This document shows positions 32,240 through 50,786 of a DNA stretch of 64,000 nt, piece by piece. A model generated the notes under the pieces. That model was given only the letters and a program-made list of their open reading frames with translations. It did no database searches and was not told the DNA's origin. Both the position numbers and the translations under genes were made by a program. Within the stretch, counting starts at the first letter, position 1, and each line of letters opens with the position of its first letter. The DNA comes from Halobacteriales archaeon YIM A00010 (GTDB lineage Archaea > Halobacteriota > Halobacteria > Halobacteriales > Haloarculaceae), in NCBI GenBank assembly GCA_025041175.1, contig JAKCFJ010000001.1, positions 868,001 to 932,000 of the forward strand, read 5' to 3'.

Positions 32240-35200
32240 CGCCGGCCACCCCCGTCGAAGCGCGGGCTTCGAGGTCGCCGTCGACTTCCAGATTAATGTC
32301 CCGTATCCGGTCTTCCATCGCGTCATCGGCGTTCCAGAGCCCACGATCGATCGCCTCCAACAGCGTGTCGGTGATGCTCTCTAGGGCCCACGGGTTCACC
32401 TCGCGCAGCCATTCCTGACGATCCTCATCGAGCGCGTACGCCTCGGCCACGTCGGTCCAGAGCGTCTCACTCACGACATCCGTAGTGGCGTCCCAGCCGA
32501 GCACGACATCGACCGTCGTGGACAGATCGCCCGCGCCTTTGTAGCCGTGTTCGCTCATGCTGTCGAGCCAGTCGGGGTTGAGCACCCGCGCGCGCATCGC
32601 CTTGCGCACCTTCTCCTCGTTGGTGTACACCGACACGTTGTCGGGATCGGACGAATCGCCCACGTAGGACGCCGGTTCTTCGCCCGCGATCTCGGAGACA
32701 GCGGTAATGAACCCGCCGTGGAAGGCATACCAATCGGAACTGTCGAACTCGTCCTGTTCGGCGGTATCCTCGATCTTCACGGTGGCTTCGACGGTTCCGA
32801 GCCGGCGCTCGAACGCGTCGTGGGCCTCGGTGACGCGTCCGCGCTGTTCGAGCGCGTAGCCGCCCCACTGCACGTACACGTCGGCCAGATCCGCGCGGTC
32901 GTCCCAGTTGCCTTCGTCGACGGCCTTGTTCGTTCCCGCGCCGTAGCCACCGGGGCGCGTGGTGAACACGCGGTGGGTGGTGGTGGGATCCTCCACGCCC
33001 TGCTCCCGGAGGCGCTCGGTTTCCTGCTCCACGTGTTTTTTGACGTAGTTCATCCCGTGTGGTTCGTCCAGCTCGACCACCGCCTCGACCGCGCTGTGGA
33101 TGACGCTCGCGGCCTGTGGGAACGCGTCCCGGAACAGCCCTGACACGCGGGTGGTCACGTCGATGCGCGGGCGGTCCAGCTCCGAAAGCGGGATCGGGTG
33201 CACGCCGTCGATCCGCCCGGCGTCGGTCCACTCGGGTTCGACGCCCATCAGCGCGAGCACCTGCGCGATCGTCTCGCCGCGCGTCCGAACCGTCGGGGTT
33301 CCCCACGCGACGACGCCGATCTCCTCGGGATACTCGCCCGCCTCGGAACGGTGGCGCTCGAGGACCCCTTCGGCCACTTCTTTGCCGACCTGCCACGCGC
33401 TTTTCGCTGGTATCTTCCGTGGATCGATCGTGTAGAAGTTCCGGGCCGTCGGGAGCAGATCGACGCCCCCGCGGGTCGGCGCGCCGCTCCCGCCCGGCGG
33501 GACGTACTCGCCGGCGAGGGCGTCGGCCGTCCGCGGAATCTCCGTGCTGGCCTCCCGAACGCGCGGTGTGGCTTCCTCACAGATGAACGACAGCGCTGCC
33601 CGGAGATCGTCGTGTGCGCCAGGGACCGCGCGGCCGTCGCCCAGCGGTTCGATGTCGACCACGAGGAGGTTCATCGTTAGCTCGTCCGGACCGGCGTCGG
33701 CCTCGGCTGCCGGAACGTCGAAACCGTGATCGGCCAGCGTTTCTACGAGTTTGATGCTCGTCTCGTACACCGCGTCGGCGGCCTCGGCGTAGGTCATCCC
33801 GAGCGCCTCGTCGTACGCGCCGGGGTCGTCGAGCATCCGCTCGTAGTCGACGCCGAGCACGCCCGCCACGCTCTCCCGAAGGCTCGGCGCGCCAGGGTTC
33901 TCGAGCCGGGTGAGCGCGACCAGATACTCGGTGAGCCGCTCGCCGTCGGGCGGCTCGCCCATCGTGTGCAGCCCCATCCGGATCTGGGTGGTTTTCACGT
34001 CGGTGAGATACTCGTGTACCCGCTCGACGAGTTCGTCGATCGTCACAGTGTCTCCCGCAACCGCACCCTCTGCGAGCGTCGATCCGGCTGCCTCGGGACC
34101 GCGGACCTCTGCCGTCTCGTCTATCTCGCCAGCAACACCGAGTTCGACCGCGAGATCCAGCTCGTCCACTTTCTCGCGGATGAGTGTAGCGAGCTGTTCG
34201 CCGTCGTCAGTGCGGGCGTCGGTCATGCCTGCCTCCCGATACCGGTTTGCGAGCTCTTCCAGCTCGGCCAGCTCGTCGTACGTGCCAGCGGCGCGCATAA
34301 CCGGCGTCAGATAGTCCACGATGGCCGCGTACGACCGGCGCTTTGCCTGCGTTCCCTCGCCGGGATTGTTGATGATGTAGGGATAGACGTTCGGGAGATC
34401 ACCGATCAGCTGGTCGGGAGCGCTCTCGCCGTTCAGTCCGACCGTCTTGCCCGGGAGCCATTCTAGGCTTCCGTGGGTGCCGAGGTGAACCACGGCGTCG
34501 GCCTCGAACGCGTTCCGGAGCCACCCGTAAAAGGCAACGTAGTCGTGTGGTGGCTCGAGATCAGAATCGTGGTACACCTTCGAGGGATCCATGCCGAACC
34601 CGCGGGGGGGCTGGACGGTGACGAGCACGTTTCCGAACTCGACGCCCGGAACCGCGAACGCCCGGTCGGGCACCGGACCCCACTCCTCGGTGACGTTCGA
34701 CCGAAACCGTTCGTCCATCGCGTCGAACCACGCGTCGTACTGTTCGGGAGAGACGACATCCACGCTCAGCTCGCGCACGTCTTCGGGTGCGACCCACCGG
34801 TCGTCGAGCGTGAGCTGTTCGGTCAGCTCCTCTACGAGCGTTTGCCCGCTGTCGGGGCGCGCTCCGCCGAGATCGTACCCACGAGCCGCCAGCTCGTCGA
34901 GCAGATTGACGGTGCTTTCGGGGCTGTCGAGCCCGAACGCGGTGCCGATGCCGTCGTCGCTAGGCGGGTAGTTGTGCAAGACGACGGCGACCCGCTTGTC
35001 TTCCGATGGTGTATGCCGTAACGCCGCCCAGTTGACCGCGAGCCGCGCGGCGTGCTCCACCCGATCCTCGATCGGGAAGTGCTGTTTGGGCGCGCTCCCA
35101 ATGCCGGCCGTATCGTCCGTTCGCTCCTTGCCGCTGATGGGGTGGGTGATGACGTTGCCGTCGAACTCCGGGAGCGCGACCGACAGGGCGAGCTCGAACC

Positions 35201-36089
35201 CCATCACGCCCGTGTCGCTCGCTTCGTACCGGGAGCGCGAGCGCATCGTCGTGATCGTCTGGACGACCGGCACACCCAACCGGTCGAGAAACACCTCGCT
35301 TGCGCCCTCGTCGCTCGCGCTCCGGCCCCGCTCGTCCATCGACAGCGAGAACATGAACGACGACACCACGCAATCCACGATCGGCTCGCCCGCGTCGTCG
35401 GTGAGCCACGCGTCGGTCACCCATTCGGCGTCCTGTTGCTCATCACCCTCGGTCGCCGGATTACAGAAAATCGGGAGCGCGTCCGCTCCCTGTGCCTCGA
35501 TGGCACGCACCTGTGCGTCCACGTACCGGGTGTTCTCGTGGGTCCAGTGGGACTCGTAGAACCAGACCGCGATCGTCGGTCGGTCCGGGGAGAACGTCGC
35601 CACTAGCTCCTCGTACGATGCGCCCGGGTGATCGGGGTGGTAGACGCCCTCCGTAGGAAGCGCCACCGGATCGTCGTACGCCAGATCCACCCCGGCGTAC
35701 TCGTTGGCCAGAAACCGCACGCAGCTGGCGACGTTGCTCGTCCCACCCTTCTCCAGATACGCGTACACCCGGTCGCGGACGGCCCCGTCGGCGCTCGTGT
35801 CCTCGAACGCGTAGGCGTCACCGGTCGATTTGACGACGACCGGAACGCCTGCTTCCCCCAGCCGACCGATCGCGTGGTCGTAGCCCGGCATGCTCTCTTC
35901 GGCTCCGTGAAGCCAGAACACTGCCGCTGCCGCGTCCGTCAACGCGTCCACGAACGCGTCGATCTCCGATTCGTCTTCGAGGTCGCTCTCGGAGCGAACG
36001 ACCAGATCGACGCCCGAAACCTGATCCGCAGCCCGTTGAATCGCGCCCAGCTCGTTCTCCGTCGCCGTGTATAAACCGATCGTTGGCAT
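32229..36089 (-). CDS. cobN: Cobaltochelatase large subunit CobN (magnesium chelatase H-type)
   Basis: The large, metal- and corrin-binding subunit has 1286 residues, the expected length. CobN/ChlH blocks are visible, for example VWFYESHWTHENTRYVD, VVLHNYPPSDDGIGTAFGLD, FGMDPSKVYHDSDLEPPHDY, VHLGTHGSLEWLPGK and GYGAGTNKAVDEGNWD. The ATG at 36089 is preceded by GGAGGT, one of the few strong Shine-Dalgarno sites here. The open frame continues upstream but is only the antisense of chlID. It is divergent from chlID, its likely partner, with a 34-base spacer. Confidence 0.95.
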   Translation of the reverse strand: MPTIGLYTATENELGAIQRAADQVSGVDLVVRSESDLEDESEIDAFVDALTDAAAAVFWLHGAEESMPGYDHAIGRLGEAGVPVVVKSTGDAYAFEDTSADGAVRDRVYAYLEKGGTSNVASCVRFLANEYAGVDLAYDDPVALPTEGVYHPDHPGASYEELVATFSPDRPTIAVWFYESHWTHENTRYVDAQVRAIEAQGADALPIFCNPATEGDEQQDAEWVTDAWLTDDAGEPIVDCVVSSFMFSLSMDERGRSASDEGASEVFLDRLGVPVVQTITTMRSRSRYEASDTGVMGFELALSVALPEFDGNVITHPISGKERTDDTAGIGSAPKQHFPIEDRVEHAARLAVNWAALRHTPSEDKRVAVVLHNYPPSDDGIGTAFGLDSPESTVNLLDELAARGYDLGGARPDSGQTLVEELTEQLTLDDRWVAPEDVRELSVDVVSPEQYDAWFDAMDERFRSNVTEEWGPVPDRAFAVPGVEFGNVLVTVQPPRGFGMDPSKVYHDSDLEPPHDYVAFYGWLRNAFEADAVVHLGTHGSLEWLPGKTVGLNGESAPDQLIGDLPNVYPYIINNPGEGTQAKRRSYAAIVDYLTPVMRAAGTYDELAELEELANRYREAGMTDARTDDGEQLATLIREKVDELDLAVELGVAGEIDETAEVRGPEAAGSTLAEGAVAGDTVTIDELVERVHEYLTDVKTTQIRMGLHTMGEPPDGERLTEYLVALTRLENPGAPSLRESVAGVLGVDYERMLDDPGAYDEALGMTYAEAADAVYETSIKLVETLADHGFDVPAAEADAGPDELTMNLLVVDIEPLGDGRAVPGAHDDLRAALSFICEEATPRVREASTEIPRTADALAGEYVPPGGSGAPTRGGVDLLPTARNFYTIDPRKIPAKSAWQVGKEVAEGVLERHRSEAGEYPEEIGVVAWGTPTVRTRGETIAQVLALMGVEPEWTDAGRIDGVHPIPLSELDRPRIDVTTRVSGLFRDAFPQAASVIHSAVEAVVELDEPHGMNYVKKHVEQETERLREQGVEDPTTTHRVFTTRPGGYGAGTNKAVDEGNWDDRADLADVYVQWGGYALEQRGRVTEAHDAFERRLGTVEATVKIEDTAEQDEFDSSDWYAFHGGFITAVSEIAGEEPASYVGDSSDPDNVSVYTNEEKVRKAMRARVLNPDWLDSMSEHGYKGAGDLSTTVDVVLGWDATTDVVSETLWTDVAEAYALDEDRQEWLREVNPWALESITDTLLEAIDRGLWNADDAMEDRIRDINLEVDGDLEARASTGVAGDDD

Positions 36090-36100
36090 AACGTTGTTAA

Positions 36101-36106
36101 ACCTCC
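36101..36106 (-). promoter_or_regulatory. Strong ribosome binding site of cobN
   Basis: On the minus strand AAAAGGAGGT ends 11 bases before the cobN ATG at 36089. Most genes in this window show no such site, so it is unusual. It fixes the start codon and implies a leadered transcript. Confidence 0.6.
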
Positions 36107-36115
36107 TTTTCACTA

Positions 36116-36125
36116 ATACAAGTAT
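36116..36125. promoter_or_regulatory. ATAC-N2-GTAT motif between cobN and chlID
   Basis: ATACAAGTAT lies in the 34-base divergent spacer, overlapping the proposed chlID start codon and 27 bases from the cobN start. Its placement could let one factor control both genes. See the matching sites before the cbiX-like gene and cbtB. Confidence 0.4.
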
Positions 36126-38208
36126 GATTGACTTAGGGACGGACAAAAAAGCTTTGCACAGGGAAAGCGCGGTGTCGTTCACCGAGATCGTCGGCCAGGC
36201 GGAGCTGAAAGAGGCGTTGCTCGCTGTCGGGGCGAACGACGAGTTGGACGGCCTGTTGATTCGCGGGGAGAAGGGGACGGGGAAATCCACGTCGGTGCGG
36301 GCGCTGTCGGAGCTGCTTCCCCCGCAAACGGTGATCGCGGGCTGTCCGTACGGCTGTCCACCGGACGCGCCCGAGCGACAGTGTGAGGCGTGTCGCGGGC
36401 GGACCGATCCGGAGACGGACGAGCGCTCAGTGCCGCTCGTGACGCTTCCGTTGGGTGCCACCCGCGAACGCGTGGTGGGCACGCTGTCGGTGGCGGATGC
36501 ATTGAGTGGGGAATACGAGTTCGATTCCGGGCTGCTCGCCCGCGCGAACCGCGGCATCCTCTACATCGACGAGGTGAACCTCCTCGACGATCACCTCGTG
36601 GACGTGTTGCTCGACGCCGCCGCCAGCGGGATCAACCGGGTCGAGCGAGACGGCGTGAGCGTCGTCCATCCAGCGGCGTTCACGCTTGTCGGGACGATGA
36701 ACCCCGAAGAGGGCGATCTCCGACCGCAGTTACGCGATCGGTTCGCGCTCCAGGCGACGGTGACGGCGTGTGAGGATCTCGACCAGCGGGTCACGATCAT
36801 CAACCGGGCGATCGGCCAAGCCGAGAACGATCGAGGGTCGAGCACCGACAGCGCGCAAGCAGTTCGTGACCGAATACGTCGCGCTCGCGCTCGCCTCGAA
36901 GGCGTGTCGCTGCCGAGGACGGTCACCGAGGAAATCGCGGAGTGCTGTCGCGAGTCGGGTGTCGAGGGTCACCGGGGGGACATCGCCACGGCGCGGGCCG
37001 CGATGACGTTCGCCGCGCTCGACGACCGGTCGACGGTGACCGAGTCGGACGTTCGCCGCGCGGCCGCGCTCGCTCTTCCCCATCGGTTGCAGTCGCGTCC
37101 GTTCGAGGACGCTCCGGACGCCGGAGATCTCCTCGAAGAACAGTTCGACGGTGGGAACGAAGAACAAGACGGCGAGTCGGCTGAGGTGGGGGATGAGCCA
37201 GCCGATGCCGACGGATCCGACACCGATGCCGATGGATCGACGGAATCCGATCCAGACGACGCGGGCGATCCGCCGTCCACACCGCCCGAAGAGAGCTCCT
37301 CGGACGATGGGGACACCGACTTGGATCACACGGGCAGCGGCGGTTCCGACCCCGGCGAAGCCGGGGTGTCCACGGACACGCGCGAGGACGAGGAGGACAG
37401 CGAGGACGCGCCCCTCGTCCCGGGCCAGGCCCGGGACGACATCGGTGTTGCAAGCGCCCCCGATCCCTCTCCCGACGCGTCCGACGCGGTCGAAGGAGCG
37501 TTGTCGGGGACCCGATCACGAACCGCTCCTCGTGTGGAGACGGAAGGGAGCCGTGTCCGGACCCAACGGGCAGCCACGAACGAACACCGGCTCGACGCCG
37601 CGGCATCCGTTCGGGCCGCAGCCACGCGTGGCTCCGAGTCGGTCGAATCGCGGGATCTGCGCCACTCGATCCGTCGGGGTGAGACCGGCGCGCTGGTGGT
37701 GTTCGTCGTCGACGCCAGCGCGTCGATGCGGCCCGCAATGCGCGCGGCGAAGGGTACTGTGCTCGAACTCCTGAAGGACGCCTACCAACACCGTGACGAA
37801 GTCGCGTTCGTCACCGTCGCGGGCGAGGGGGCCGACGTGTTGCTCCCACCCACCGACAGCGTCGCGCTCGCCGCTCGTCATCTCAAGGAGTTGCCCACCG
37901 GCGACCGGACGCCGCTGCCCGACGGACTCCGAACCGCGAGCGAACTGCTCGAACGCGCCGAGCCGGCTGTGGGTCTCGCCGTGGTGGTCACCGACGGCAA
38001 AGCGAACGTCGCGGACGGAAGTCCTGTGGGTGAAACCCGCGATGCCGCCGCCCGGCTCGCCGACACCGCTGCGCACACGCTCGTCGTCGACGCCGGGGAC
38101 GATCCCGGACTCACCGACACCATCGCCGGCGTGACCGACGGCGAACACGTCCCGCTCGAGGCGCTTTCTGCCGAGCGCGTCGACGCGTCGGTCCCACTCA
38201 CGAAGTGA
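36124..38208 (+). CDS. ChlI/ChlD fusion subunit of cobaltochelatase (AAA+ and VWA)
   Basis: This is the ATPase motor for CobN, with 694 residues. The AAA+ part covers about 1-335, with Walker A RGEKGTGKST near residue 50 and Walker B GILYIDEVNLL. A low-complexity acidic linker rich in D, S, E, G and P spans about 340-480. The VWA domain has a MIDAS DASASM motif near residue 530. It thus combines CobS- and CobT-like (ChlI/ChlD) roles. The ATG at 36124 is adopted. A GTG at codon 17 is possible because the ATAC-N2-GTAT motif overlaps the ATG. Confidence 0.92.
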   Translation: MIDLGTDKKALHRESAVSFTEIVGQAELKEALLAVGANDELDGLLIRGEKGTGKSTSVRALSELLPPQTVIAGCPYGCPPDAPERQCEACRGRTDPETDERSVPLVTLPLGATRERVVGTLSVADALSGEYEFDSGLLARANRGILYIDEVNLLDDHLVDVLLDAAASGINRVERDGVSVVHPAAFTLVGTMNPEEGDLRPQLRDRFALQATVTACEDLDQRVTIINRAIGQAENDRGSSTDSAQAVRDRIRRARARLEGVSLPRTVTEEIAECCRESGVEGHRGDIATARAAMTFAALDDRSTVTESDVRRAAALALPHRLQSRPFEDAPDAGDLLEEQFDGGNEEQDGESAEVGDEPADADGSDTDADGSTESDPDDAGDPPSTPPEESSSDDGDTDLDHTGSGGSDPGEAGVSTDTREDEEDSEDAPLVPGQARDDIGVASAPDPSPDASDAVEGALSGTRSRTAPRVETEGSRVRTQRAATNEHRLDAAASVRAAATRGSESVESRDLRHSIRRGETGALVVFVVDASASMRPAMRAAKGTVLELLKDAYQHRDEVAFVTVAGEGADVLLPPTDSVALAARHLKELPTGDRTPLPDGLRTASELLERAEPAVGLAVVVTDGKANVADGSPVGETRDAAARLADTAAHTLVVDAGDDPGLTDTIAGVTDGEHVPLEALSAERVDASVPLTK

Positions 38209-38451: not shown

Positions 38452-39186
38452 ATGTTCGTCGAGTACGTTACCCGCGGAGCGAAGGCGGGGCTGGTGGGAG
38501 GCGTAGCGTTCGGTCTGTTCATCGCGCTGGTCGGGAATCCGCTCATCGGGTACGCGGAGACGTTCGAACACAGCCACGAGGCCCCGGCGGTTTCGGGAAC
38601 CGTCACCGCGGTGGTCAGCGTCGCGGGCGGCGTTCTGCTGGGGGTGTTGCTCGGGGCGGTGGTGTTCGGCGCCGCGTATTATTTCCTGGAGCCGGTGCTG
38701 GCGGGCTGGGGATCTGTGGACGCGAAAAGCTACGTGCTCGGCGGTGCCGGCTTCATCACGGTGTCGGGTGCGCCGTGGGTGGTGTTTCCGCCCCAGCCGC
38801 CTGGTGTGGAGCAGTCGCTCCCGGTCGACGTTCGGATCGCGTGGTACGCCCTCATGATGGGCGTCGGTGCGCTGGCGTGTGGGCTGGCCGGGTACGTGTA
38901 CCGACAGCTCCGGCGTCGGTTCGACGATCGGGGGTGGGTGGTGGCGGCGCTCGGGGCGATCGCGTCGCTCGGAGTGATTCCCATGGTCGGGGTGGTCGCG
39001 CCGGCGAATTCGGTCACTGGCCCCCTTCCAACCGAATTGGTACCGGTGATCCAGGCGGTCACGGCGGTGGGGCAGATCGGGTTCTGGTTCGTTCTGGCAA
39101 CCGCCCACGCGTGGCTGGTTCGACGGGAGGAACCGGTTTCGGGTCCGAGCGACCCCATCGACGCGTCGATGGCCACCGACTCATGA
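38452..39186 (+). CDS. cbtA: Cobalt transporter subunit CbtA
   Basis: A 244-residue membrane protein with about six helices. It opens with FVEYVTRGAKAGLVGGVAFGLFIALVGNPL and has the HSHEAPAV loop and GAPWVVFPPQPPGVEQSLP between helices, both CbtA-like. It imports cobalt for the corrin enzymes encoded around it. Its stop overlaps the ferredoxin start (ATGA). Confidence 0.92.
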   Translation: MFVEYVTRGAKAGLVGGVAFGLFIALVGNPLIGYAETFEHSHEAPAVSGTVTAVVSVAGGVLLGVLLGAVVFGAAYYFLEPVLAGWGSVDAKSYVLGGAGFITVSGAPWVVFPPQPPGVEQSLPVDVRIAWYALMMGVGALACGLAGYVYRQLRRRFDDRGWVVAALGAIASLGVIPMVGVVAPANSVTGPLPTELVPVIQAVTAVGQIGFWFVLATAHAWLVRREEPVSGPSDPIDASMATDS

Positions 39187-40366: not shown

Positions 40367-40578
40367 GACCTCGGCAACACCGTGATCGGACCGGAGTCAC
40401 ACTGGGGACGCTGTTCCCTGAAGCGAGACCCAGATGACCCATTGTCGATTAGACTGACAACGAAATGCGATAGAGACTGTTTCCCACGAACGTCCATAAT
40501 ACTACAACGGGTATGGATAGAAACTGTTTAAATCGAGTAACAAAAGGTTATAATGGAATCAATACCCTATATCGTTGT

Positions 40579-40995
40579 ATGGGGGCAAACGATCCTGGGC
40601 GGCCGAACGGCACACGCAACAACAGGGGACAGTACACCGAGGAAATCAGCCCCCAAGATGTCCTTTCGGTGTTTGTCGACCGGTCGGATCCGTCGGAGCC
40701 GTTAGCGGCGAGCGAGGTGGCAGAGGCGCTGGGCTGTAATCGGAAGACTGCGTACACGAAGTTGCGCGAACTCGCCGAGGAGGGAGCGCTCGGTAGTAAG
40801 AAGTTCGGCGCGCGTGCTCGCGCCTGGTGGCGACCAGCGGATGACTCACGCGCGCCAACGCCTGGTACGTCGTGGATCGAGAGTGATGATCCATTTTTCA
40901 GTGCCAAGCCAGTTGCGGGTGAGCCGCTCGCCGAGAACGAGACGATAGACGACGTGCTGTATGGGTCGGTCGAGGACGAGGCAACCGATGAGTGA
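40579..40995 (+). CDS. HTH antitoxin-like protein paired with PIN toxin
   Basis: A 138-residue protein. The middle part is a winged helix (LAASEVAEALGCNRKTAYTKLRELAEEGAL). It is followed by an acidic tail that may block the toxin (DDVLYGSVEDEATDE). It overlaps the PIN gene by 8 bases, the usual toxin-antitoxin arrangement. The ATG at 40579 is preferred, since the frame also runs upstream through AT-rich sequence without coding character. Confidence 0.7.
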   Translation: MGANDPGRPNGTRNNRGQYTEEISPQDVLSVFVDRSDPSEPLAASEVAEALGCNRKTAYTKLRELAEEGALGSKKFGARARAWWRPADDSRAPTPGTSWIESDDPFFSAKPVAGEPLAENETIDDVLYGSVEDEATDE

Positions 40996-41452
40996 TGAGA
41001 TCTCAGGATGGAAACCGTTGTTCGTGGATACGGGAGCGTTGTTCGCGTACTACAATGCGAACGAGGGGCACCGTCATACGCGTGCTCGCGCGGTGTTCGA
41101 GGCGATTCAGACGGGAGATCTCGCCTATCGGCCACTGCTGACGAGTCGATTTGTGCTTGCCGAACTATCGACGCTGTTGGTCCGGAAGGTCGACCACGCC
41201 ACTGCCATGCGTGCTCTCGGTCATATCCGCACATCGCCAGCGTTCACGATCTGTGTGCCCAACGAGGAAGAGTTCGCGTCGACGTGTGATCAGTTCGAAC
41301 AGTACGACGACCAACGGATCTCGTTCGTGGATCATTCCAGCGCGGTGCTGGCCCACAAGCACGATGCCACGCACGTGTTCGCGTTCGATAACGATTTTGC
41401 GACGCTCGGATTCACTCGTGTCCCAGTTGATACTGATGACGCTATCGAATAG
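40988..41452 (+). CDS. vapC: PIN-domain ribonuclease toxin (VapC-like)
   Basis: A 154-residue PIN domain with the acidic metal-binding residues in place: FVDTGALFAYYN at the N terminus, VLAELSTLL in the middle, and SFVDHSSAVLA with FAFDNDFATLGF at the C terminus. VapC proteins cleave RNA when freed from the partner. It is coupled to the HTH protein upstream. Confidence 0.85.
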   Translation: MSDEISGWKPLFVDTGALFAYYNANEGHRHTRARAVFEAIQTGDLAYRPLLTSRFVLAELSTLLVRKVDHATAMRALGHIRTSPAFTICVPNEEEFASTCDQFEQYDDQRISFVDHSSAVLAHKHDATHVFAFDNDFATLGFTRVPVDTDDAIE

Positions 41453-42065: not shown

Positions 42066-43295
42066 CTACCGGCTCGGAGCACCGACGATCAGCCGATACG
42101 CGCCGCGCCGTCGGCCTTCATCGTGATACACCACGGGTTCCTCGATGGCGGCGACCGTCTCGCCGTCGAGCGCGACAGCGGAGACGATCCCCGCCGTTCG
42201 GTGGCCGCTGTCTCTCCCGGTTTCCACGTCGAACAGACGAACCCCGTGAACACCGGGATCGCGGGTTCGGAACTGCTGTGCGCTCGGGACCGCCACCCTG
42301 TCGGCTGCAGTGGCGAGTTCGTTCGTGAATCCACCCACGGACGCCGACCACTCACGGGTTCCCTCGTGAGAGACACCGAACGCCGTGTGTTCGTCGGGGT
42401 GGAGCGACGCCGTTTCCCGTCCTTCTTCGGGGTAGGTGTTGCCCGTGACGAACACCACGCCGTCGTCGGACGCGTGAACGTGGTTCGGGTACGCGTACAC
42501 CGTCTCATCGTCGATCTCTGTGGGTGTGGCGAGATCGACGCGCCAGTCGGTGCCGTCGGGTCCGACCCGGTAGCCCCGGTGGTCGGCGTGGCTCGTAACC
42601 ACAACACCGGTATCGAGCAGCGACGCGTCGCCCACTCGTCGCTGACCGTCCCCCGGCGGGTCCCACCGGTACCGGTTCGCTCCGTTTTCGGCGTCGAGCA
42701 CGACCAGCCCGTGGTGGTGCTCGCCGGGACACCGGTTGTACGCGAGGGCAACCCGATCTCCACGAACGTCTACACAGATGGGAGAGGCGTCGGTTTCGTG
42801 GGTCCACGCGACGGTGCCGTCGGCATCGAACGCGTAGACAGTGCTCGAAAACGACCGCCGGTCACCGTCGCGCTCGTAGCGCCGAGCCGCGGCGTACACG
42901 CGGGTTCTGTCGTCGTCGACCGCGAGATCCACGACGCATGGCAGAAAAAACCGCGTGGACTGTTGTGGCTCGCCCACGTCGGTGGCCGTCGCGTACCGCC
43001 AGCGGCAGGTTCCTGAATCCAGATCGTACACACCGATTCCGCCATCGGGACCGCGCTCACCGGCGACGACGCTGTCCCCGACCGGGACCACCGACACGAC
43101 TGCCGCCTCGGCGTCCGTCCCGGCGCGCCAGCGTTCGTCGAGCGTTCTCCGGTCGTAGGCGATCACAGCGCCCCCAGCAGTTCCGACCACGACGCATCCC
43201 TCGGTCAGGGCGACGGCCGAGCGCCGTCCCGTGTGCCGCGACCGCGCGGGGTCGATATCGCCATCGATTCCAACGGTTCGCCACGCGTCACTCAT
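42066..43295 (-). CDS. PQQ-like beta-propeller protein at the end of the cobalamin operon
   Basis: A 409-residue protein built of repeated blades such as GTAGGAVIAYDRRTLDERWRAG, GGIGVYDLDSGTCRWRY and VYAFDADGTVAWTH, the outer-strand pattern of PQQ/WD40-like propellers. There is no signal peptide or lipobox, so it should be cytoplasmic. Its start overlaps the DUF3209 stop by 8 bases, so it is part of the cobalamin operon. A scaffolding or binding role is possible but unknown. Confidence 0.75.
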   Translation of the reverse strand: MSDAWRTVGIDGDIDPARSRHTGRRSAVALTEGCVVVGTAGGAVIAYDRRTLDERWRAGTDAEAAVVSVVPVGDSVVAGERGPDGGIGVYDLDSGTCRWRYATATDVGEPQQSTRFFLPCVVDLAVDDDRTRVYAAARRYERDGDRRSFSSTVYAFDADGTVAWTHETDASPICVDVRGDRVALAYNRCPGEHHHGLVVLDAENGANRYRWDPPGDGQRRVGDASLLDTGVVVTSHADHRGYRVGPDGTDWRVDLATPTEIDDETVYAYPNHVHASDDGVVFVTGNTYPEEGRETASLHPDEHTAFGVSHEGTREWSASVGGFTNELATAADRVAVPSAQQFRTRDPGVHGVRLFDVETGRDSGHRTAGIVSAVALDGETVAAIEEPVVYHDEGRRRGAYRLIVGAPSR

Positions 43296-43659
43296 CGGCC
43301 GGGAAGGCTTCGTGCAGGAGATCGTGTGCCTCACCCAGCCCGTCGAGCACGCTCTCGCCGTGATCGGTCACGCGGCCGATCGCCCGTTCGGCGTCACGAA
43401 CGGCCACTAGCCGGCCCCGAAGGTAGCCGTAGGCGGGATCACCGGCGTCGGTGGCAGCAATTTCGCTCTCCAGATCGACGAGCGCCGAATCGAGGTGTCG
43501 CTCGATCTCCGCGAGGCTTTCGGCGTGGACGAGCGCCCCGATAGGGCCGTCCATGCGGCCCTCGAGCTCGCGCTCGGCGTGTTGGCGCGCGCGCTCGTCT
43601 TCGGTTCCCAGCACGTTCATCAGTCCGAGTCGTAGCGCTTCGATTTCGTAACAGCTCAT
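43288..43659 (-). CDS. DUF3209 family protein
   Basis: A small helical protein of 123 residues (MSCYEIEALRLGLMNVLG start, LGEAHDLLHEAFPADE end), rich in E, R and H. The family is found with cobalamin genes in haloarchaea. Its biochemical role is not established. The start lies 2 bases after the cbiX/ferredoxin stop, in the same operon. Confidence 0.8.
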   Translation of the reverse strand: MSCYEIEALRLGLMNVLGTEDERARQHAERELEGRMDGPIGALVHAESLAEIERHLDSALVDLESEIAATDAGDPAYGYLRGRLVAVRDAERAIGRVTDHGESVLDGLGEAHDLLHEAFPADE

Positions 43660-43661
43660 GA

Positions 43662-44885
43662 TCAGAGGGTTTGGTCGACGATCTCCGAAACGATGCGGTC
43701 CCTGTCGAGGTGGGACGAAACGATGCGTTCGGCGTCCGCTTCATCGACATCCCCGTACCAGACGCCGTCCGGGGAGACAGCCACCATCGGACCCTCCCCA
43801 CAGCGACCGAGACACGACGAGCGCGTGATCCGCGCGTCACACTCCTCGGAATCGCGGGCGTGCTGGCGCAAGCGCTCGAGGACAGCAGGAGCACCGTCGG
43901 CGGCGCACGTCTGGTTCGTGCAGACAGCGACGTGTTTCTCGGGGGCGTCGTGGGCGTGTGGCTGCTCATCGACACTCTCGCGGTCGGCGTGGTCGGCCTG
44001 GTGTGTGAGCGCTCGGAGCATCGCTCGCGCGCCGCCGACGTCCTCGGTGTAGCCGTCGAGTTCGACCTTGTACTTGCACGTGTCACAGGACATCCGGACG
44101 CTGTCGGTGCGCGCCTCCTGCCAGCGGTCGCCGAGAACGTCCAGCAGGCGCGAATCCGTTCCCAACGGGTCGCCCGTGCCGACGGTGACGTACGGATACT
44201 CCTCGTCGAAGCCGGCCGTTCGGTCTCGAACCCGTTGGGTGAGCACGCCATCACCGAGCATGTACGGAAGCACGACGACGCCATCCGGGCGGTGTTTCGC
44301 CGTCGCGTGGAGCGCGTCGGTGAGGCGCGGCTCGGTAACCCCGATGTAACAGGTCTCGACGCGATCGAACGCGCGCCCCTCGTACAGGAGGCGGGCCAGC
44401 TTGTGCGCGTCGCCGTTCGCGTCCGGATCGCTCGAACCGCGCGCACAGAGGACGACGGCGACAGCATCGGTGTCGCGATCGACACCGATGTTCGTCTCGA
44501 CGGCCCTCGCTCGCTCGTCGAGCAGATCGACGATGGCCGGGTGGATGCCGAGGTGGCGGCCGTTGTGGATGGTCACGTCGGGATACTCGGTGCGGGCCTG
44601 TTCGATCGCAAGCGGCACGTCGGCTTTGACGTGGCTCGCGGCGAACAGAGAGAGCTGTACCACCGTAATACGCGACACCGCCGGGGCAAGCCCCGCGATC
44701 GCGTCGGCGATGGACGGCTCCGCGAGTTCGAGAAACCCGGCGTCGACCGGAACGTCGAGCCGTTGTTCCAACCCATCCGCGAGGGTTCGGACCTGCTCGT
44801 TCGACGTTTCGCGGCGCGAGCCGTGGCCGATCAACAACACGGCCTCATCCGCGAGCGCGTCCGTTGGTGTGTTCGTCCGCATCAT
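43662..44885 (-). CDS. cbiX: CbiX cobaltochelatase fused to a [2Fe-2S] ferredoxin domain
   Basis: This 407-residue protein is a fusion. The N-terminal part (about 1-270) is a double CbiX, with VLLIGHGSRRETSNEQ at its metal site and VVLCARGSSDPDANGD in the second half, then RMSCDTCKYKVELDGY. A His/Asp-rich linker follows (about 290-315). The C-terminal thioredoxin-like ferredoxin domain has CTNQTCAADG and SSCLGRCGEGP. Sirohydrochlorin cobalt insertion is thus joined to an iron-sulfur electron carrier. The ferredoxin domain resembles the separate protein at 39183. Confidence 0.9.
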   Translation of the reverse strand: MMRTNTPTDALADEAVLLIGHGSRRETSNEQVRTLADGLEQRLDVPVDAGFLELAEPSIADAIAGLAPAVSRITVVQLSLFAASHVKADVPLAIEQARTEYPDVTIHNGRHLGIHPAIVDLLDERARAVETNIGVDRDTDAVAVVLCARGSSDPDANGDAHKLARLLYEGRAFDRVETCYIGVTEPRLTDALHATAKHRPDGVVVLPYMLGDGVLTQRVRDRTAGFDEEYPYVTVGTGDPLGTDSRLLDVLGDRWQEARTDSVRMSCDTCKYKVELDGYTEDVGGARAMLRALTHQADHADRESVDEQPHAHDAPEKHVAVCTNQTCAADGAPAVLERLRQHARDSEECDARITRSSCLGRCGEGPMVAVSPDGVWYGDVDEADAERIVSSHLDRDRIVSEIVDQTL

Positions 44886-45619
44886 TCTCCCGAGAACGAA
44901 AGGGATCCAACGGCACCACCGGTTGCGCGTTCGACGCTCCGGCGGAGCTTCCGGCGTCTATCGGCCGCGTACAGCCCCGACGCGTCGCTTTCGTCGTACA
45001 CCCACCGAGCGAATGTTGCGGGATCGGCGTCGTCCCCGAGTCCGAACCAGTACCCGCCCGAGGAACTGTCCGAAAGCCCATCGGTGGGTATCGATGGATC
45101 ACTCCGATCGAGCAGCGAGCGAAGCATTTCGAGCAGTTGGCGCTCCTCGTGAACGAACGAGACGCCGACCGACGCCGACGACTCCCGAAAGCAGATCGTC
45201 CCACACGCTTCGAGCAACCCCCGGACCAGCTGCTGTCGGTGCTCGTCAAAGCGATCGAACCGGAGTTCACCGCGAGAATCGGTCGCCACCGAGATCCCCA
45301 GCGCGTCGGTGGTGCGCTCGGCGAACGACGGCGGGATTCGAATCCGGAGCTCGTACGCTTCCTCGTGGCGGATGACGGAGGCGTCGTGGGCTGACTGGCG
45401 GGCTGTGACCCTGTGATCGGCCCGATCTCCGCCGGCATCGATACCGGCAATCGCGGCCAGCGCGTCGACCGCCGTTTCGTCCCCCGCGCGCACGGTCACG
45501 TGCTCGGCTGTTAGCTCCCCGTCGCCAGCCACGCGGCCCCAGAAGTACGCCGTTTCCGGCGTGGGCGCGAGGAGATCGTCCGTCCGCGGCGTCCCGTCGT
45601 TCGAGTCCGCATCACGCAT
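44882..45619 (-). CDS. LAGLIDADG-fold-like protein in the cobalamin operon
   Basis: A 245-residue protein annotated elsewhere, if at all, only as a cobalamin operon protein. I see two LAGLIDADG-type helices: AYFWGRVAGDGEL at residues 24-36 and QLVRGLLEACGTICF near 140. They are followed by a WVYDESDASGLYAADRRRKL segment near 210, like the DA-x-YL-x-RK tail of such proteins. The second motif has ACG instead of ADG, losing one catalytic acid. A nucleic-acid-binding, non-cutting regulator is therefore possible. It overlaps neighbours on both sides. Confidence 0.6.
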   Translation of the reverse strand: MRDADSNDGTPRTDDLLAPTPETAYFWGRVAGDGELTAEHVTVRAGDETAVDALAAIAGIDAGGDRADHRVTARQSAHDASVIRHEEAYELRIRIPPSFAERTTDALGISVATDSRGELRFDRFDEHRQQLVRGLLEACGTICFRESSASVGVSFVHEERQLLEMLRSLLDRSDPSIPTDGLSDSSSGGYWFGLGDDADPATFARWVYDESDASGLYAADRRRKLRRSVERATGGAVGSLSFSGE

Positions 45620-45863
45620 CGTCGATCACCGTCACGTCGATGGCGTCGACCGGACACGCGCGGGCGGCGAGCTGCGCGTCCTCGAGACGACCGTCGTCGA
45701 ACCGTGCGACCGTCTCCTCGGCGTCCTCGAATCCGTGTGACTCTGGTTCGTCGATCGTCGCCAGCCCGTCCGTGGCTTCCACGAACCGGTCGTCGCGGAC
45801 GAGACACGCAAAGACGCCCTCGCAAGCGGTCCGGTCGATCCGAACGCGGTACTCAGTACTCAT
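45612..45863 (-). CDS. Small mono-cluster ferredoxin
   Basis: An 83-residue protein starting VRIDRTACEGVFACLVRDDRF and ending AARACPVDAIDVTVID. Cysteines at CEGVFAC and CPVDAI fit a single [3Fe-4S] or [4Fe-4S] cluster ferredoxin of the type that reduces P450s or serves ring-modifying enzymes. The start overlaps the cbiH stop, and its own stop overlaps the next start. A role in ring contraction or reduction is suggested by position only. Confidence 0.8.
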   Translation of the reverse strand: MSTEYRVRIDRTACEGVFACLVRDDRFVEATDGLATIDEPESHGFEDAEETVARFDDGRLEDAQLAARACPVDAIDVTVIDDA

Positions 45864-46767
45864 ATTTTGATTCGTAACCCCGGGGTGTCACCATGCGGCC
45901 GTCCCAGACGTACGTCTCCTCGTTGCCGACGATGATGGTCGTGGTCATGTCGATGAGATCCGTTTCGCCCAGTTCCGATAGTGCTTCAAGCTCGACGATC
46001 TCGGTCCGTTCGTCCTCGCGGCCCGCCCCGTGGACGATCCCCACTGGCGTCTCCGGCCCGCGGTGTTCGGTGAGGATCTCACAGCACGTCCGGAAGTTCT
46101 CCCGGCGTTTGCGGCTCCACGGGTTGTAGATGGTGATGGTGAAGCCCTCGGCTGCGACGGCGTGAAGCCGCGATTCGATCGTTTCCATCGGTGTGAGGTG
46201 ATCCGACAACGAGATGCTGACGCTGTCGTTCACCAGCGGCGCACCGACCCGCGCGCCACAGGACTGGGCCGCGGGCACGCCCGGAACGACCTCGAACTCG
46301 ACCATGCTGGCGGTCGCGTCCTTCGATTCGAGGATCTCGAGCGCCAAGCCCGCGAGCGCGTACACGTTCGGGTCGCCGCTCCCGATGATGGCGACGTCGT
46401 TGCCCGCGAGCGCTCGATCGACCGCCTCCTCCGTGCGCGAAACCTCCCCACACATCGGCGTGTCGTACAGCTCGTCGGCCGCCTCCGTGATCTCGTCGGG
46501 TAGGAGGTCGATGTACGTCGTGTATCCGACGATGTGCTCGGCGTCCAATAGGGCACGACGGGCGCGCCCGGTCATCCCCTCCGGATGTCCGGGTCCCAGC
46601 CCGACCGCGAGCAACCGGCCGGGATCGGCGTCGAACGCCTCCACGGCCGATCCAACCCGCTCGTCGGTGGTCTCGCGCTTCGAGCGGCCACAGGTCGAAT
46701 TCGATTCCGATTTCGAACTGCCACACGTTCGTTCTGTGCTCGCTTCGGTGCTGTTGTCGCTGCTCAT
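45853..46767 (-). CDS. cbiH: Precorrin-3B C17-methyltransferase CbiH (first paralog)
   Basis: A 304-residue tetrapyrrole methylase. A Ser/Thr/Cys-rich N-terminal extension of about 45 residues precedes the SAM motif LLAVGLGPGHPEGMT. The signature blocks are GSGDPNVYALAGLALEI and FEVVPGVPAAQSCGARVGAP. The enzyme methylates C17 with ring contraction. Two CbiH-like genes stand in tandem 5 bases apart, so one may have a separate task. Confidence 0.9.
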   Translation of the reverse strand: MSSDNSTEASTERTCGSSKSESNSTCGRSKRETTDERVGSAVEAFDADPGRLLAVGLGPGHPEGMTGRARRALLDAEHIVGYTTYIDLLPDEITEAADELYDTPMCGEVSRTEEAVDRALAGNDVAIIGSGDPNVYALAGLALEILESKDATASMVEFEVVPGVPAAQSCGARVGAPLVNDSVSISLSDHLTPMETIESRLHAVAAEGFTITIYNPWSRKRRENFRTCCEILTEHRGPETPVGIVHGAGREDERTEIVELEALSELGETDLIDMTTTIIVGNEETYVWDGRMVTPRGYESKYEY

Positions 46768-46772
46768 AGTTG

Positions 46773-47651
46773 TTAGAACTCCTCGACGTCACGCCCGCCG
46801 CGCGGGGTGACGAGGTGTCTCCGGTGGTCGTTCTCCCAAACTGTCGTTTCGTGGGTGCCGACAAGGATCGAGGTTCCCATGCCCCCGACCTCCTCGTCGT
46901 GGTCGGTCGCCGCTCCGAGCGTCGTGATGGTGTGGGTTTCACCGTCCAGATTCCGCCCGGCGTCGGCGCGGCCAGCGTCGTTGAAGATGCCGACCGGAAC
47001 GTGGTCGGCGCGCTCTTCCCGGACGATCTCGATCGCGCGCTGGTAGTTCCGCCAGCAGTTGTACAGGACGATGACGAACCCGCTGATTGCGGCGGCTCGG
47101 AGTTTTTCCTCGATCTCCTCCCAGCCGCGCCACTTGTCCGACAGCGACACGGTACAGAAGTCGTTGCTGAGCGGCGCGCCCAGGTTCGCAGCCCCGCCGA
47201 GCGCCGCCGTCACGCCCGGAACCACGGTGATCGGAACGTCGTACGCGCTCTCTTCCTCGGCCATCAGATAGATGAGGTCGCTTTTTCCGTACACGTTCGG
47301 ATCGCCGCCCGACACGTGGGCCACAGTCTGTCCGTCGCGCACCCGATCGAACGCCTCCCGCGCGAGTTCGACCTGCCGGCCCATCGAGGAGCGGACGATC
47401 GTCTGGCGCGTGCCGTCGGGCCGAACGACGACCGTCTCCTCGTCCGAGCGATCGATTGCTGCATCTTCCGGTGGGAGCGTTCTATCCTCTCGGAGGAACG
47501 CCTGGTAGAGGTTCGAGGCGATGACGCAGTCGGCACTCGAAATCACGTCCCTCGCGCGTTGGGTCATCGTGTCGGGTAATCCCGGTCCGATACCGACGAC
47601 GTACAGTCTGCCCCGGCTCGCTCGCGGTGGCTCGGATTCGGATTCAGCCAT
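46773..47651 (-). CDS. cbiH: CbiH-like tetrapyrrole methylase (second paralog)
   Basis: A 292-residue methylase with LYVVGIGPGLPDTMTQRA, SGGDPNVYGKSDLIYLMAEE and ITVVPGVTAALGGAANLGAP. It is clearly related to the next gene but diverged, for example GGDP versus GSGDP. It might cover C17 methylation with cobalt-specific ring contraction while its neighbour covers another step. The sequence does not decide. The start lies 3 bases after the cbiG stop. Confidence 0.88.
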   Translation of the reverse strand: MAESESEPPRASRGRLYVVGIGPGLPDTMTQRARDVISSADCVIASNLYQAFLREDRTLPPEDAAIDRSDEETVVVRPDGTRQTIVRSSMGRQVELAREAFDRVRDGQTVAHVSGGDPNVYGKSDLIYLMAEEESAYDVPITVVPGVTAALGGAANLGAPLSNDFCTVSLSDKWRGWEEIEEKLRAAAISGFVIVLYNCWRNYQRAIEIVREERADHVPVGIFNDAGRADAGRNLDGETHTITTLGAATDHDEEVGGMGTSILVGTHETTVWENDHRRHLVTPRGGRDVEEF

Positions 47652-47654
47652 GGA

Positions 47655-48626
47655 TTACTCACCCACCGCGACCGTCACCGCGTCTCCGAAGCGTTCTTTC
47701 TTCCGCAGAAGCTCGTGGTTGCGCCCGCCGGCGATGGCTGACGCCTCCGCGATGCCGGGCCACCCGATGAGTTCCTTCGATCGTGACGGACTCGGGCCTT
47801 CAAAGTCCGCGAGCGTTTCCTTCTCGAACAGCACGACACCGGCGTCGATCTCCCGAGCTGCCTCGTACAGCCCGGTCTCGTTCTCCTTGCGCGCGCCGGT
47901 GGCGACGAATTCCACGCTCTCGAAGCCCAGATCCAGCTCTGACAACGCGGTCTCCCACGCGGTGAGCACCCGCTCTTTTCGCACCCCCGAAACGGTGCCA
48001 GTGCCGAGCACCACGCTATCCTCGTTGCGTTTGAGAACGGTCACGTCGTCGTCGACGAGGACGGCGCGCGGGCCGTCGAGTCGGGCGACCGGCCCGAGTT
48101 CGTCGTTCAGCACTGCGAGATTCGTCGCAACCGTCGAATCCCCGTTGACAACGTGGGCGTCCAGGGCTTTGGCCTTGCTCTCGACGCCCTGCTTGCCGGC
48201 CGCCTCGCTCGCGGTGGTCATCGCGGGCACCGCACCCAACTGTGACAGATCGTGGGCGACCTGGTTCGCGCCGTGGTGGCCGCCCGTGAGCGGGATCGCC
48301 CACGTGAACTGCTCGTCGACGACCACGATGGCCGGATCGTCCCACTTGTCCTCAAGCAACGGCGCGGATTTGCGCAGCGCGATGCCCGAAGCCATCAGCC
48401 CGACGAAACAGTCGTATTCGCCCCACTGCTCGGCAAACACGTCCCCGTGGTACTCGATGATGTCCACCCGGTCGTAGCCGCCTTCGATCTCCGCCTCGAT
48501 CGTGCGGGCGGTGTCGAGCTTGCGCTCGAAGCTGATGATGGCGATCTCCTCGGCCACCTCGCCGTCCGAATCCGGCGTCGAACAGTGGCTTTCCTCCGAT
48601 TCCGTGTCCGTATCGTTTGCACACAT
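47655..48626 (-). CDS. cbiG: Cobalt-precorrin-5A hydrolase CbiG
   Basis: It opens the delta-lactone of cobalt-precorrin-5A, releasing acetaldehyde. The 323 residues comprise an acidic N-terminal tail, a CbiG N-domain (FVGLMASGIALRKSAPLLEDKWDDPAIVVVDE, GGHHGANQVAHDLS) and a C-terminal CbiG domain (GTVSGVRKERVLTAWETALSE, EFVATGARKENETGL, FGDAVTVAVGE). It lies between cbiF and the CbiH pair. Confidence 0.92.
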   Translation of the reverse strand: MCANDTDTESEESHCSTPDSDGEVAEEIAIISFERKLDTARTIEAEIEGGYDRVDIIEYHGDVFAEQWGEYDCFVGLMASGIALRKSAPLLEDKWDDPAIVVVDEQFTWAIPLTGGHHGANQVAHDLSQLGAVPAMTTASEAAGKQGVESKAKALDAHVVNGDSTVATNLAVLNDELGPVARLDGPRAVLVDDDVTVLKRNEDSVVLGTGTVSGVRKERVLTAWETALSELDLGFESVEFVATGARKENETGLYEAAREIDAGVVLFEKETLADFEGPSPSRSKELIGWPGIAEASAIAGGRNHELLRKKERFGDAVTVAVGE

Positions 48627-48643: not shown

Positions 48644-49504
48644 TTAATCGCCAGTCTCGCCTTCGGTCGCGGTGCGATTCGTCCAGTCGCCGTAGAGGTA
48701 CGAGCGTTCGTACCCCGCTTTTCGCGCCGCGTCGCCGATGATGACGAGCGCGGAGGCGCGGTAGCCGGCCGCTTCGACGAGCTCCCCGATGGTGGCGATA
48801 GTCCCCTCGATGACATCTTCGTCGGGCCAGGACGCGTGATAGACAACCGCAACCGGCGTTTCCGGGTCGTGACCGTCCTCGAGGAGCCGTTCCATCGTCT
48901 CCTCGATCGCGTGCGTTCCGAGGTAGATGCAGGTCGTCACGTCACCCATCCCGACGAACTCGCCGATGTGGTCGTCAGCCGGATCGAGCGTCTTCCCCTG
49001 CGGTCGGGTGAACGCAACGTGATTCGCCACGCCGTTCAGCGTGAGCTGGGTCCGGAGGCTTGCACTGGCCGCAAACGCGGCCGTCACACCCGGCACGAGG
49101 TACGTCGGGATTCCCTCGTGTTCGAGCGCGTCCATCTGTTCGAGCGCCGCTCCGTACACGGCAGGATCTCCGCTGTGGAGCCGGACGACCGATCGGCCCG
49201 CCTCGTAGGCCTCACACATCAGCGGCACGAGCTCCTCCAGATCCTTGCCGATGCTCGAGACCTGCTCGGCGTCCGCACAGTAGGCCTCGAGGAGATCGCT
49301 GTTGACCAGCGATCCCGCGTGCACCACGAGATCGGCGGCTTCGACCAGCTCTTTTCCCGTGACCGTGAGCAGCCCGGGATCGCCCGGTCCGGCCCCGATG
49401 AACGGGATCCCCTTCTGTGGCTCGCCGGCGGTTCGCTCGTGGATCCGCGGGTCGCGCTCGCTCGTGGTGGTCTCCGCATCGATGGCTGTTTGTGGGTCAG
49501 TCAT
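48644..49504 (-). CDS. cbiF: Precorrin-4 C11-methyltransferase CbiF
   Basis: A SAM-dependent methylase of 286 residues. The blocks are GIPFIGAGPGDPGLLTVTGKEL, VVRLHSGDPAVYGAALEQMDAL and YLVPGVTAAFAASASLRTQLT, then EGTIATIGELVEAAGYRASALV, all typical of CbiF/CobM. The ATG at 49504 overlaps the cbiL stop; a GTG one codon earlier is less likely. Confidence 0.93.
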   Translation of the reverse strand: MTDPQTAIDAETTTSERDPRIHERTAGEPQKGIPFIGAGPGDPGLLTVTGKELVEAADLVVHAGSLVNSDLLEAYCADAEQVSSIGKDLEELVPLMCEAYEAGRSVVRLHSGDPAVYGAALEQMDALEHEGIPTYLVPGVTAAFAASASLRTQLTLNGVANHVAFTRPQGKTLDPADDHIGEFVGMGDVTTCIYLGTHAIEETMERLLEDGHDPETPVAVVYHASWPDEDVIEGTIATIGELVEAAGYRASALVIIGDAARKAGYERSYLYGDWTNRTATEGETGD

Positions 49505-50223
49505 CACGAGCCCCCCACTCCGACACTGTCGGGTGTGTTGGCGTTTTCGAACGCCGCAGTTGCTGGTTCGTCGTCGAGACCGCGTTTTTCGGCGTACGCG
49601 AGCGTGTAGTAATCCCGGTCGGCGACCGCCTCCGGATCGCCGGTGACGACGGTTTCACCGGTCTCCATGAACAGCCGACGGCCGTACACCACGTCGTATC
49701 CGGCCTCGGTGAGCCCCTCGTGGGTCGCCGGCGCGTCGGTGACCTTGAACAGGATCATCCGGTCGGGACCCGTGGGTGACACCCCACGGGCGGCCTCTCG
49801 CAACGCGAGGCTCGAACCGGCGGTGATCTCGACGCCGAGCGCGGTCGTAAACGCCGTAACGGCGCTCACGCCGGGGACGATCTCGATGTCGACCGAATGG
49901 AACGCCCCGAGCGTCCGCCGGAGGTGGCCGAACGTCGAGTACACGTTCGGATCGCCCAGCGTCACGAACGCTACATCACCTTCGCGCGCACGCGGTGCAA
50001 TCTCTTCGGCGGCCGCCTTCCACGCTGCCCGGAGCTCGTCCTCGTCGCGGGTCATCGGGAACGAAAGGTCCGAGATCCGCTCTTCGGGCGCGTGTTCGGT
50101 AGCGACCGATCGGGAGAGCCGACCTGGCGTGTACACCACGTCGGCCCGCTGTAGCACCCGCTGCCCGCGCACGGTCACCAGATCCGCGCTGCCCGGTCCC
50201 AGCCCGATGCCATACAGCGTCAT
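49504..50223 (-). CDS. cbiL: Precorrin-2 C20-methyltransferase CbiL
   Basis: A 239-residue methylase with YGIGLGPGSADLVTVRGQRVLQ, VAFVTLGDPNVYSTFGHLRRTL and EIVPGVSAVTAFTTALGVEI. The LGDPxxYST form of the motif is the CbiL/CobI mark. It acts just after cobalt insertion in the anaerobic route. It overlaps cbiT upstream and cbiF downstream by a few bases. Confidence 0.93.
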   Translation of the reverse strand: MTLYGIGLGPGSADLVTVRGQRVLQRADVVYTPGRLSRSVATEHAPEERISDLSFPMTRDEDELRAAWKAAAEEIAPRAREGDVAFVTLGDPNVYSTFGHLRRTLGAFHSVDIEIVPGVSAVTAFTTALGVEITAGSSLALREAARGVSPTGPDRMILFKVTDAPATHEGLTEAGYDVVYGRRLFMETGETVVTGDPEAVADRDYYTLAYAEKRGLDDEPATAAFENANTPDSVGVGGS

Positions 50224-50786
50224 CGGTCTCCTCCGACCTCCGTGACACCAGCGCCGCCGACCACCATGTACACCGGGTTGTCCGAGTCGAAGCTCGTCGC
50301 CCCGGCCAGCTCGTAGCCGTGGCTCACCTGGAACTGGACGATCTCCTCCAACAGTCCCCGCCCACGGAACGCTTCGGTGGCCTCGCCAGCAACCTCCAAA
50401 CGGGAAACGTTCATCACGATCCGATCGATCCCCGTCTCGACCGCGTGATCGAGCACCGACTCGTAGTTTCGGCTCCCGCCGATGAACAACGCGTCACCGT
50501 CCCGTGGCAACCCCGCCGGCGCTTCCGCCTCCCGGAGTGTAACGTCCCCAGCCACGTCGTTTGCGGCCAAATTCTTCCGCGTCACCGCCAACCGTTCTGG
50601 CTTCCGTTCGAACACAGTGACCCGCCCGGCGCGGCGTGCCGCCTCGATGGTGACGGCTCCGGTACACGATCCGACCTCCACGAAGTGGTCGGCCGCCCCG
50701 AGATCGAGTTTACCCAAAAGCACGGCCCGAACCTCCGATTTGGTTGGTCCCGCCTTCGCGTCGTGTGGAAGCGATACACGCGACAT
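50220..50786 (-). CDS. cbiT: Cobalt-precorrin-6B C15-methyltransferase/decarboxylase CbiT
   Basis: A 188-residue Rossmann methyltransferase. It starts GPTKSEVRAVLLGKLDL, then the SAM motif FVEVGSCTGAVTIEAARR, then RDGDALFIGGSRNYESVL, as in CbiT/CobL C-terminal domains. It is the first gene of the roughly 8.7 kb cobalamin operon, and the promoter must lie in the 147-base gap shared with the MarR-type regulator. Confidence 0.9.
   Translation of the reverse strand: MSRVSLPHDAKAGPTKSEVRAVLLGKLDLGAADHFVEVGSCTGAVTIEAARRAGRVTVFERKPERLAVTRKNLAANDVAGDVTLREAEAPAGLPRDGDALFIGGSRNYESVLDHAVETGIDRIVMNVSRLEVAGEATEAFRGRGLLEEIVQFQVSHGYELAGATSFDSDNPVYMVVGGAGVTEVGGDR

Follow-up and report, generated by a model that had tools for sequence, protein, structure and literature searches.

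This study describes P0001, a protein of 245 residues encoded in a haloarchaeal cobalt-early cobalamin operon, which has a LAGLIDADG fold that is well supported by its predicted structure, has its second catalytic acid replaced throughout its family and is encoded at a constant place directly before the cobaltochelatase gene cbiX. The gene is already known, and what is new is that it is a domesticated, non-cutting LAGLIDADG protein fixed in a metabolic operon. All coordinates are positions in the window, the whole stretch of 64,000 nt that was analysed (contig JAKCFJ010000001.1, 868,001–932,000). The operon has the order cbiT, cbiL, cbiF, cbiG, cbiH1, cbiH2, ferredoxin, P0001, cbiX, DUF3209 and PQQ-like protein, in which the cbi names were assigned from the order annotated in a relative and from the available part of PMC8305020; CobN, a chelatase ATPase and CbtA are found further along the same cluster.

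50220–50786, minus strand: cbiT (methyltransferase), named by order
49504–50223, minus strand: cbiL (TP_methylase), named by order
48644–49507, minus strand: cbiF (TP_methylase), named by order
47655–48626, minus strand: cbiG (PF11760, PF01890)
46773–47651, minus strand: cbiH1 (TP_methylase), named by order
45853–46767, minus strand: cbiH2 (TP_methylase), named by order
45612–45863, minus strand: Fer4_15 ferredoxin gene, upstream partner of P0001 (PF13459)
44882–45619, minus strand: P0001, very probably catalytically dead protein with a predicted two-motif LAGLIDADG fold
43662–44885, minus strand: cbiX cobaltochelatase with a C-terminal 2Fe–2S domain, downstream partner of P0001 (PF01903, PF01257)
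43288–43659, minus strand: DUF3209 protein, add-on set (PF11483)
42066–43334, minus strand: PQQ-like β-propeller protein, add-on set (PF13360; 60 of 80 loci)
38452–39186, plus strand: CbtA, probable cobalt transporter subunit (PF09490)
32229–36557, minus strand: CobN (PF02514)

The cob cluster also contains an HTH_20-like ORF that overlaps a PIN-domain ORF (40513–41452, plus strand), possibly a toxin–antitoxin pair, as well as a further, distant CbiX paralogue (28808–29578, plus strand) and an ORF with a weak match to DBI_PRT (CobT-like; 27520–28518, minus strand; E 2.5e-5), which adjoins a CbiA/GATase_3 ORF.

The P0001 ORF begins with an ATG at 45619 and its stop codon ends at 44882. It shares 8 nt with the ferredoxin ORF and 4 nt with the CbiX ORF, it directly precedes cbiX in all of the 80 loci compared, and the 4 nt overlap of its stop with the cbiX start recurs in 63 of 79 loci, in keeping with the preliminary description, which had taken it for a regular operon member overlapping both neighbours and not for an intron or intein. 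The ferredoxin gene accompanies P0001 in 78 of the 80 loci and DUF3209 does so in 77. The dN/dS values of P0001 against two relatives are about 0.25 (0.216/0.876) and about 0.31 (0.201/0.658); judged from these sequence comparisons, P0001 is under purifying selection, and its ORF is far more than a chance reading frame, since relatives are widespread, the dN/dS values are low and the 4 nt overlap is recurrent. The gene is present as a single copy in its genome, where two weak extra matches, L026 (E 0.005) and L027 (E 0.11), coincide with ORFs for unrelated proteins and were set aside as chance. In seven genomes with long open frames, P0001 proved not to be fused to CbiX or to the ferredoxin, the extra length being unconserved read-through.

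Of 59 related genomes, 25 have a relative of P0001; across the class the number is 175 of 341, and a draw of 294 genomes from the phylum gave 24 matches, all within one order. CbiG_N is found in 180 of the 341 genomes, and the two occurrences are closely coupled: P0001 is present in 173 of the 180 genomes with cbiG versus two of the 161 without it. The conservation in haloarchaeal operons that the preliminary description had left to be checked is thus confirmed. The seven genomes with cbiG and without P0001 are G043, G045, G060, G093, G294, G340 and G341, and the two with the reverse combination are G339, in which P0001 is in two pieces, and G361, in which it lies at a contig edge. G339 also has neither CbiG nor DUF3209, possibly as the remnant of a lost operon. 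One plasmid record of Haloarcula rara (NZ_CP119786.1; L100 and L103) carries two copies of the P0001–cbiX end of the cluster.

The distribution of DUF3209 (177 of 341 genomes) is nearly the same as that of P0001: when two weak matches are left out of the comparison (G294, 6.8e-4; G279, 6.3e-6), 174 genomes share both, DUF3209 stands alone in G093 and P0001 stands alone in G339. The DUF3209 model is all-helical and matches TTHB059 from Thermus thermophilus (Foldseek E 1.2e-4; Z 13.4 over 114 residues), and Cys3, Glu7, His27, Glu31, His55, Glu64, His112 and His116 are invariant among 40 sequences; model and sequence together suggest a helical protein that binds metal. No paper joining DUF3209 with cobalamin was found in the open-access collection searched. 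In the B12 operon of Leptospira interrogans, a 2Fe–2S CbiX adjoins DUF3209, and a DUF3209 match is also present in Thermus composti; P0001 matches in the annotated-record collection that includes Leptospira comprise eight records, all haloarchaeal. Since the 2Fe–2S CbiX and DUF3209 extend beyond the haloarchaea and the P0001 matches are haloarchaeal only, P0001 appears to have been added, in haloarchaea, to a more widespread set of add-ons.

The preliminary description had read a LAGLIDADG-like fold from AYFWGRVAGDGEL, QLVRGLLEACGTICF and WVYDESDASGLYAADRRRKL, all of which are found in the P0001 translation. Searches of Pfam and NCBIfam with the P0001 sequence alone gave no useful match, including none to PF14528 (LAGLIDADG_3), and a PDB sequence search with P0001 or its profile gave only weak matches of unrelated kinds. 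PF14528 is nevertheless matched by 11 of 25 aligned relatives (E ≤ 10; best E 2.7e-5), and the P0001 profile aligns with one made from 15 LAGLIDADG domains of haloarchaea with a probability of 94–96% over 158–164 columns; the reversed profile reaches 0.1%, and none of 30 column shuffles exceeds 0.6%. An AlphaFold model built from an alignment of 63 sequences (pLDDT 87.2, pTM 0.86) places both LAGLIDADG helices where the two domains meet, with an α–β saddle domain after each, and ends in a helix at residues 219–232 and a short tail. In a Foldseek search of the PDB with this model, all 24 matches with E ≤ 0.001 are LAGLIDADG proteins, including the TliVMA intein, I-DmoI, the bI3 maturase and I-Tsp061I, followed by WhiA at 3e-3. 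VIA-align superimposes the model on the TliVMA intein with Z 13.6 (170 residues, 3.1 Å), on I-Tsp061I with Z 13.5 (181 residues, 3.1 Å) and on WhiA with Z 12.8 (183 residues, 4.1 Å), and among the matches listed 50 of 50 are LAGLIDADG-fold proteins. We looked in the predicted structure for a missing two-helix core or a match to an alternative family, and found neither. The parts of P0001 that concern the former active site are the following.

45521–45559, minus strand: first LAGLIDADG helix in the model, residues 21–33, the last being Asp33 at the first catalytic acid position
45386–45388, minus strand: codon of invariant His78, in the hairpin loop AHD
45206–45256, minus strand: second LAGLIDADG helix in the model, residues 122–138
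45203–45205, minus strand: codon of Cys139, at the second catalytic acid position
45191–45193, minus strand: codon of invariant Cys143

Residue counts were made on 93 distinct sequences, after removal of 13 identical ones from 106, and three of these do not cover the N-terminus. At the second catalytic acid position (139), 92 of the 93 have Cys and one has Ala, so that none is acidic, whereas all 15 haloarchaeal LAGLIDADG reference domains have Asp or Glu at both catalytic positions; the loss of the second acid that had been proposed for this single gene therefore holds for the whole family. Of the 90 sequences that extend to the first position, 59 carry Asp or Glu there. Because the second acid is replaced in every member and the first is often lost, nuclease activity of P0001 is very unlikely. 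His78, Glu137 and Cys143 are kept in all 93 sequences and, together with the near-invariant Cys139, could be metal ligands; among the basic residues, Arg133, Arg221 and Lys224 are invariant and Arg84 is mostly kept. The domestication that had been suggested is supported by the fold, the fixed operon place and the occurrence across the class.

Focusing on the cbi operons without P0001, six of the seven genomes have a CbiX that lacks the 2Fe–2S domain and carries a His-rich tail. This form lies inside the operon in L146, L147, L148, L154 and L155, and in G340 (L203) it lies beside cbiC and a TP_methylase gene. The seventh genome, G093 (L149, 10703–12888), has tandem CbiX genes, the first of which is His-rich and occupies the P0001 slot and the other of which has the 2Fe–2S domain, and it keeps the ferredoxin, DUF3209 and PQQ-like genes. 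In the P0001-bearing loci, CbiX reaches the 2Fe–2S domain in 77 of 79, one of the 80 having been left out as it gave no CbiX ORF match; the exceptions are L120, on a short contig, and L097, where P0001 occurs alongside a His-rich CbiX without the 2Fe–2S domain. The His-rich CbiX thus resembles P0001 in the slot that it fills in G093 and in being the CbiX form of the six other genomes; their folds are unrelated, and any likeness would be one of role only. In a midpoint-rooted tree of five Cbi proteins, L146, L147, L148, L154 and L155 form one group (support 0.977), L156 (G340) is basal in the other group and L149 is nested within that other group. Repeated joint loss of P0001 and origin of the His-rich CbiX was considered and rejected, since the tree reduces the pattern to a single deep split plus one basal case and one replacement; because the P0001-less operons fall mostly into one deep group, the pattern reflects few independent events.

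The most diverged P0001, that of G044, lies between two Cation_efflux transporters and beside a rhodanese gene, and the cbi operon and cbiX of this genome are on other contigs. The same genome has 14 LAGLIDADG_3 matches, and an ORF about 3 kb from the relocated P0001 (L150, 10362–12443) looks, by eye, like an intein-split dCTP deaminase-type gene.

G043, G045 and G060 are the three genomes, of 28 tested, that lack the heme–copper oxidase PF00115, and their cbi operons are all without the add-on module. All 17 tested genomes that carry P0001 have this oxidase, as do the four remaining P0001-less ones; Fisher's test of oxidase against P0001 over 24 cbiG-bearing genomes gives 0.017, a value that ignores relatedness. 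An anaerobic, sulfur-respiring haloarchaeon, Halodesulfurarchaeum formicicum HSR6, is described in the available part of PMC5437934. The add-on set, consisting of the ferredoxin, the CbiX 2Fe–2S domain, DUF3209, the PQQ-like protein and P0001, may be linked to oxygen.

The explanation that we prefer, although we give it somewhat less than an even chance, is that P0001 is a domesticated LAGLIDADG protein which acts as a dedicated CbiX accessory for cobalt insertion in the cobalt-early pathway. Cobalt handling for CbiX is suggested by the constant pairing of P0001 with cbiX, by the occupation of its slot in G093 by a His-rich CbiX, by the efflux context in G044 and by the Cys and His residues at and near the old metal site. 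The ancestor would have been a LAGLIDADG protein with two motifs, of the kind found in archaeal introns or inteins, which lost DNA cleavage and became fixed in the haloarchaeal cobalt-early B12 operon. Its old active-site groove may bind Co2+ or else sirohydrochlorin, either cobalt-free or cobalt-loaded, through Cys139, Cys143 and possibly His78 and Glu137, and the protein, perhaps in contact with CbiX, would then support cobalt insertion as part of an add-on set that is missing from the deep group of cbi operons, including those of the three oxidase-less genomes tested. Several observations stand against this explanation: L097 combines P0001 with a His-rich CbiX without the 2Fe–2S domain, one member has Ala139, the oxidase is present in four P0001-less genomes and G044 is a single case. 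A more specific version, which we regard as rather doubtful, is that the endonuclease metal site has been rebuilt, with Cys in place of an Mg2+-holding acid, and that P0001 carries cobalt or cobalt-sirohydrochlorin for CbiX within an add-on set through which aerobic haloarchaea can use the cobalt-early pathway despite its oxygen sensitivity; if true, P0001 would be a LAGLIDADG protein without any nucleic-acid role.

P0001 might instead regulate the cob operon by binding DNA or RNA, as the preliminary description had suggested, using a non-cutting LAGLIDADG saddle as in WhiA. The fold, the superposition on WhiA and the conserved basic residues noted above are all compatible with this, and Rfam and tRNA scans of the whole window gave no match, and hence no Rfam riboswitch, which leaves room for some other regulation. 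However, the gene lies inside the operon and is coupled to cbiX instead of forming a separate regulator gene, a copy of CbiX occupies its slot in G093 and the model lacks the extra domain of the WhiA type. As a weak sign in the same direction, its mean net charge per 100 residues is −8.0, more negative than the −4.9 of the 15 haloarchaeal LAGLIDADG domains. The context and the conserved Cys and His residues point to metal-related or CbiX-related work over promoter binding, and we consider a regulator unlikely, though still a serious alternative.

Equally unlikely is a redox helper, in which Cys139 and Cys143, together with the ferredoxin and the 2Fe–2S domain of CbiX, would pass electrons to an oxygen-sensitive cobalt intermediate or protect it. 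P0001 does travel with the ferredoxin, the 2Fe–2S CbiX and DUF3209, is absent from the three oxidase-less genomes and has two near-invariant cysteines, but it has no cofactor fold, and the Ala139 member, the retention of P0001 in L097 and the four oxidase-bearing genomes without P0001 count against this role as well.

A role as a gap-filling pathway enzyme, either a CbiD-type methyltransferase or a CbiJ-type reductase, is decidedly improbable. The LAGLIDADG fold is not known to have a SAM or NAD site, and neither PF01888 (CbiD) nor PF02571 (CbiJ) has a match in P0001 or in 25 members of its family. The available part of PMC8305020 treats four unassigned cluster genes, including HVO_B0055, the P0001 orthologue of Haloferax volcanii, as candidates for the CbiD and CbiJ gaps, and CbiD and CbiJ were indeed found in none of 80 haloarchaeal genomes, 38 of which have CbiG, so that the gap in the haloarchaeal pathway is general. 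However, four of the 80 (G043, G045, G060 and G093) have a cbi operon without P0001, CbiD or CbiJ; P0001 is therefore not the general answer to this gap, and it would serve something else, most likely cobalt insertion. That P0001 is still a homing endonuclease, or a passing remnant of one, is hardly credible: the fold alone favours it, against the replaced second acid in all 93 sequences, the constant and non-mobile place in all 80 loci, the purifying selection, the single copy in the genome and the lack of a viral relative, none of 14 viral stretches that matched a pattern having been confirmed.

The orthologue HVO_B0055 belongs to a model strain. It is identified by operon position and is given as 'function unassigned' in the available part of PMC8305020, and neither there nor in the annotated records is the family assigned a fold or a function; it and its orthologues lie, like P0001, between the ferredoxin gene and cbiX, and the annotated records, which are named 'cobalamin biosynthesis protein' or 'hypothetical protein', are alike by sequence too. 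P0001 also bears on the question of the two missing B12 steps raised in that part of PMC8305020. No paper joining LAGLIDADG with cobalamin biosynthesis was found in the open-access collection searched.

In comparison with known systems, P0001 shares the whole two-domain fold of I-DmoI, I-Tsp061I and the TliVMA intein (Z 13.2–13.6 over 156–181 residues), whereas it differs from them in the loss of the second catalytic acid, in the frequent loss of the first and in being a free-standing operon gene outside any intron or intein. Known LAGLIDADG proteins cut DNA, serve as RNA maturases or, in the case of WhiA with its additional C-terminal helix–turn–helix domain, act as a transcription factor. 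P0001 resembles WhiA (DUF199) as a domesticated, non-cutting form of the fold, but its model shows no further domain beyond the LAGLIDADG fold and its gene lies inside a metabolic operon. Whichever mechanism applies, a dead LAGLIDADG protein that has become fixed in a vitamin operon, in roughly half of the haloarchaea sampled, would represent a new destination for this fold.
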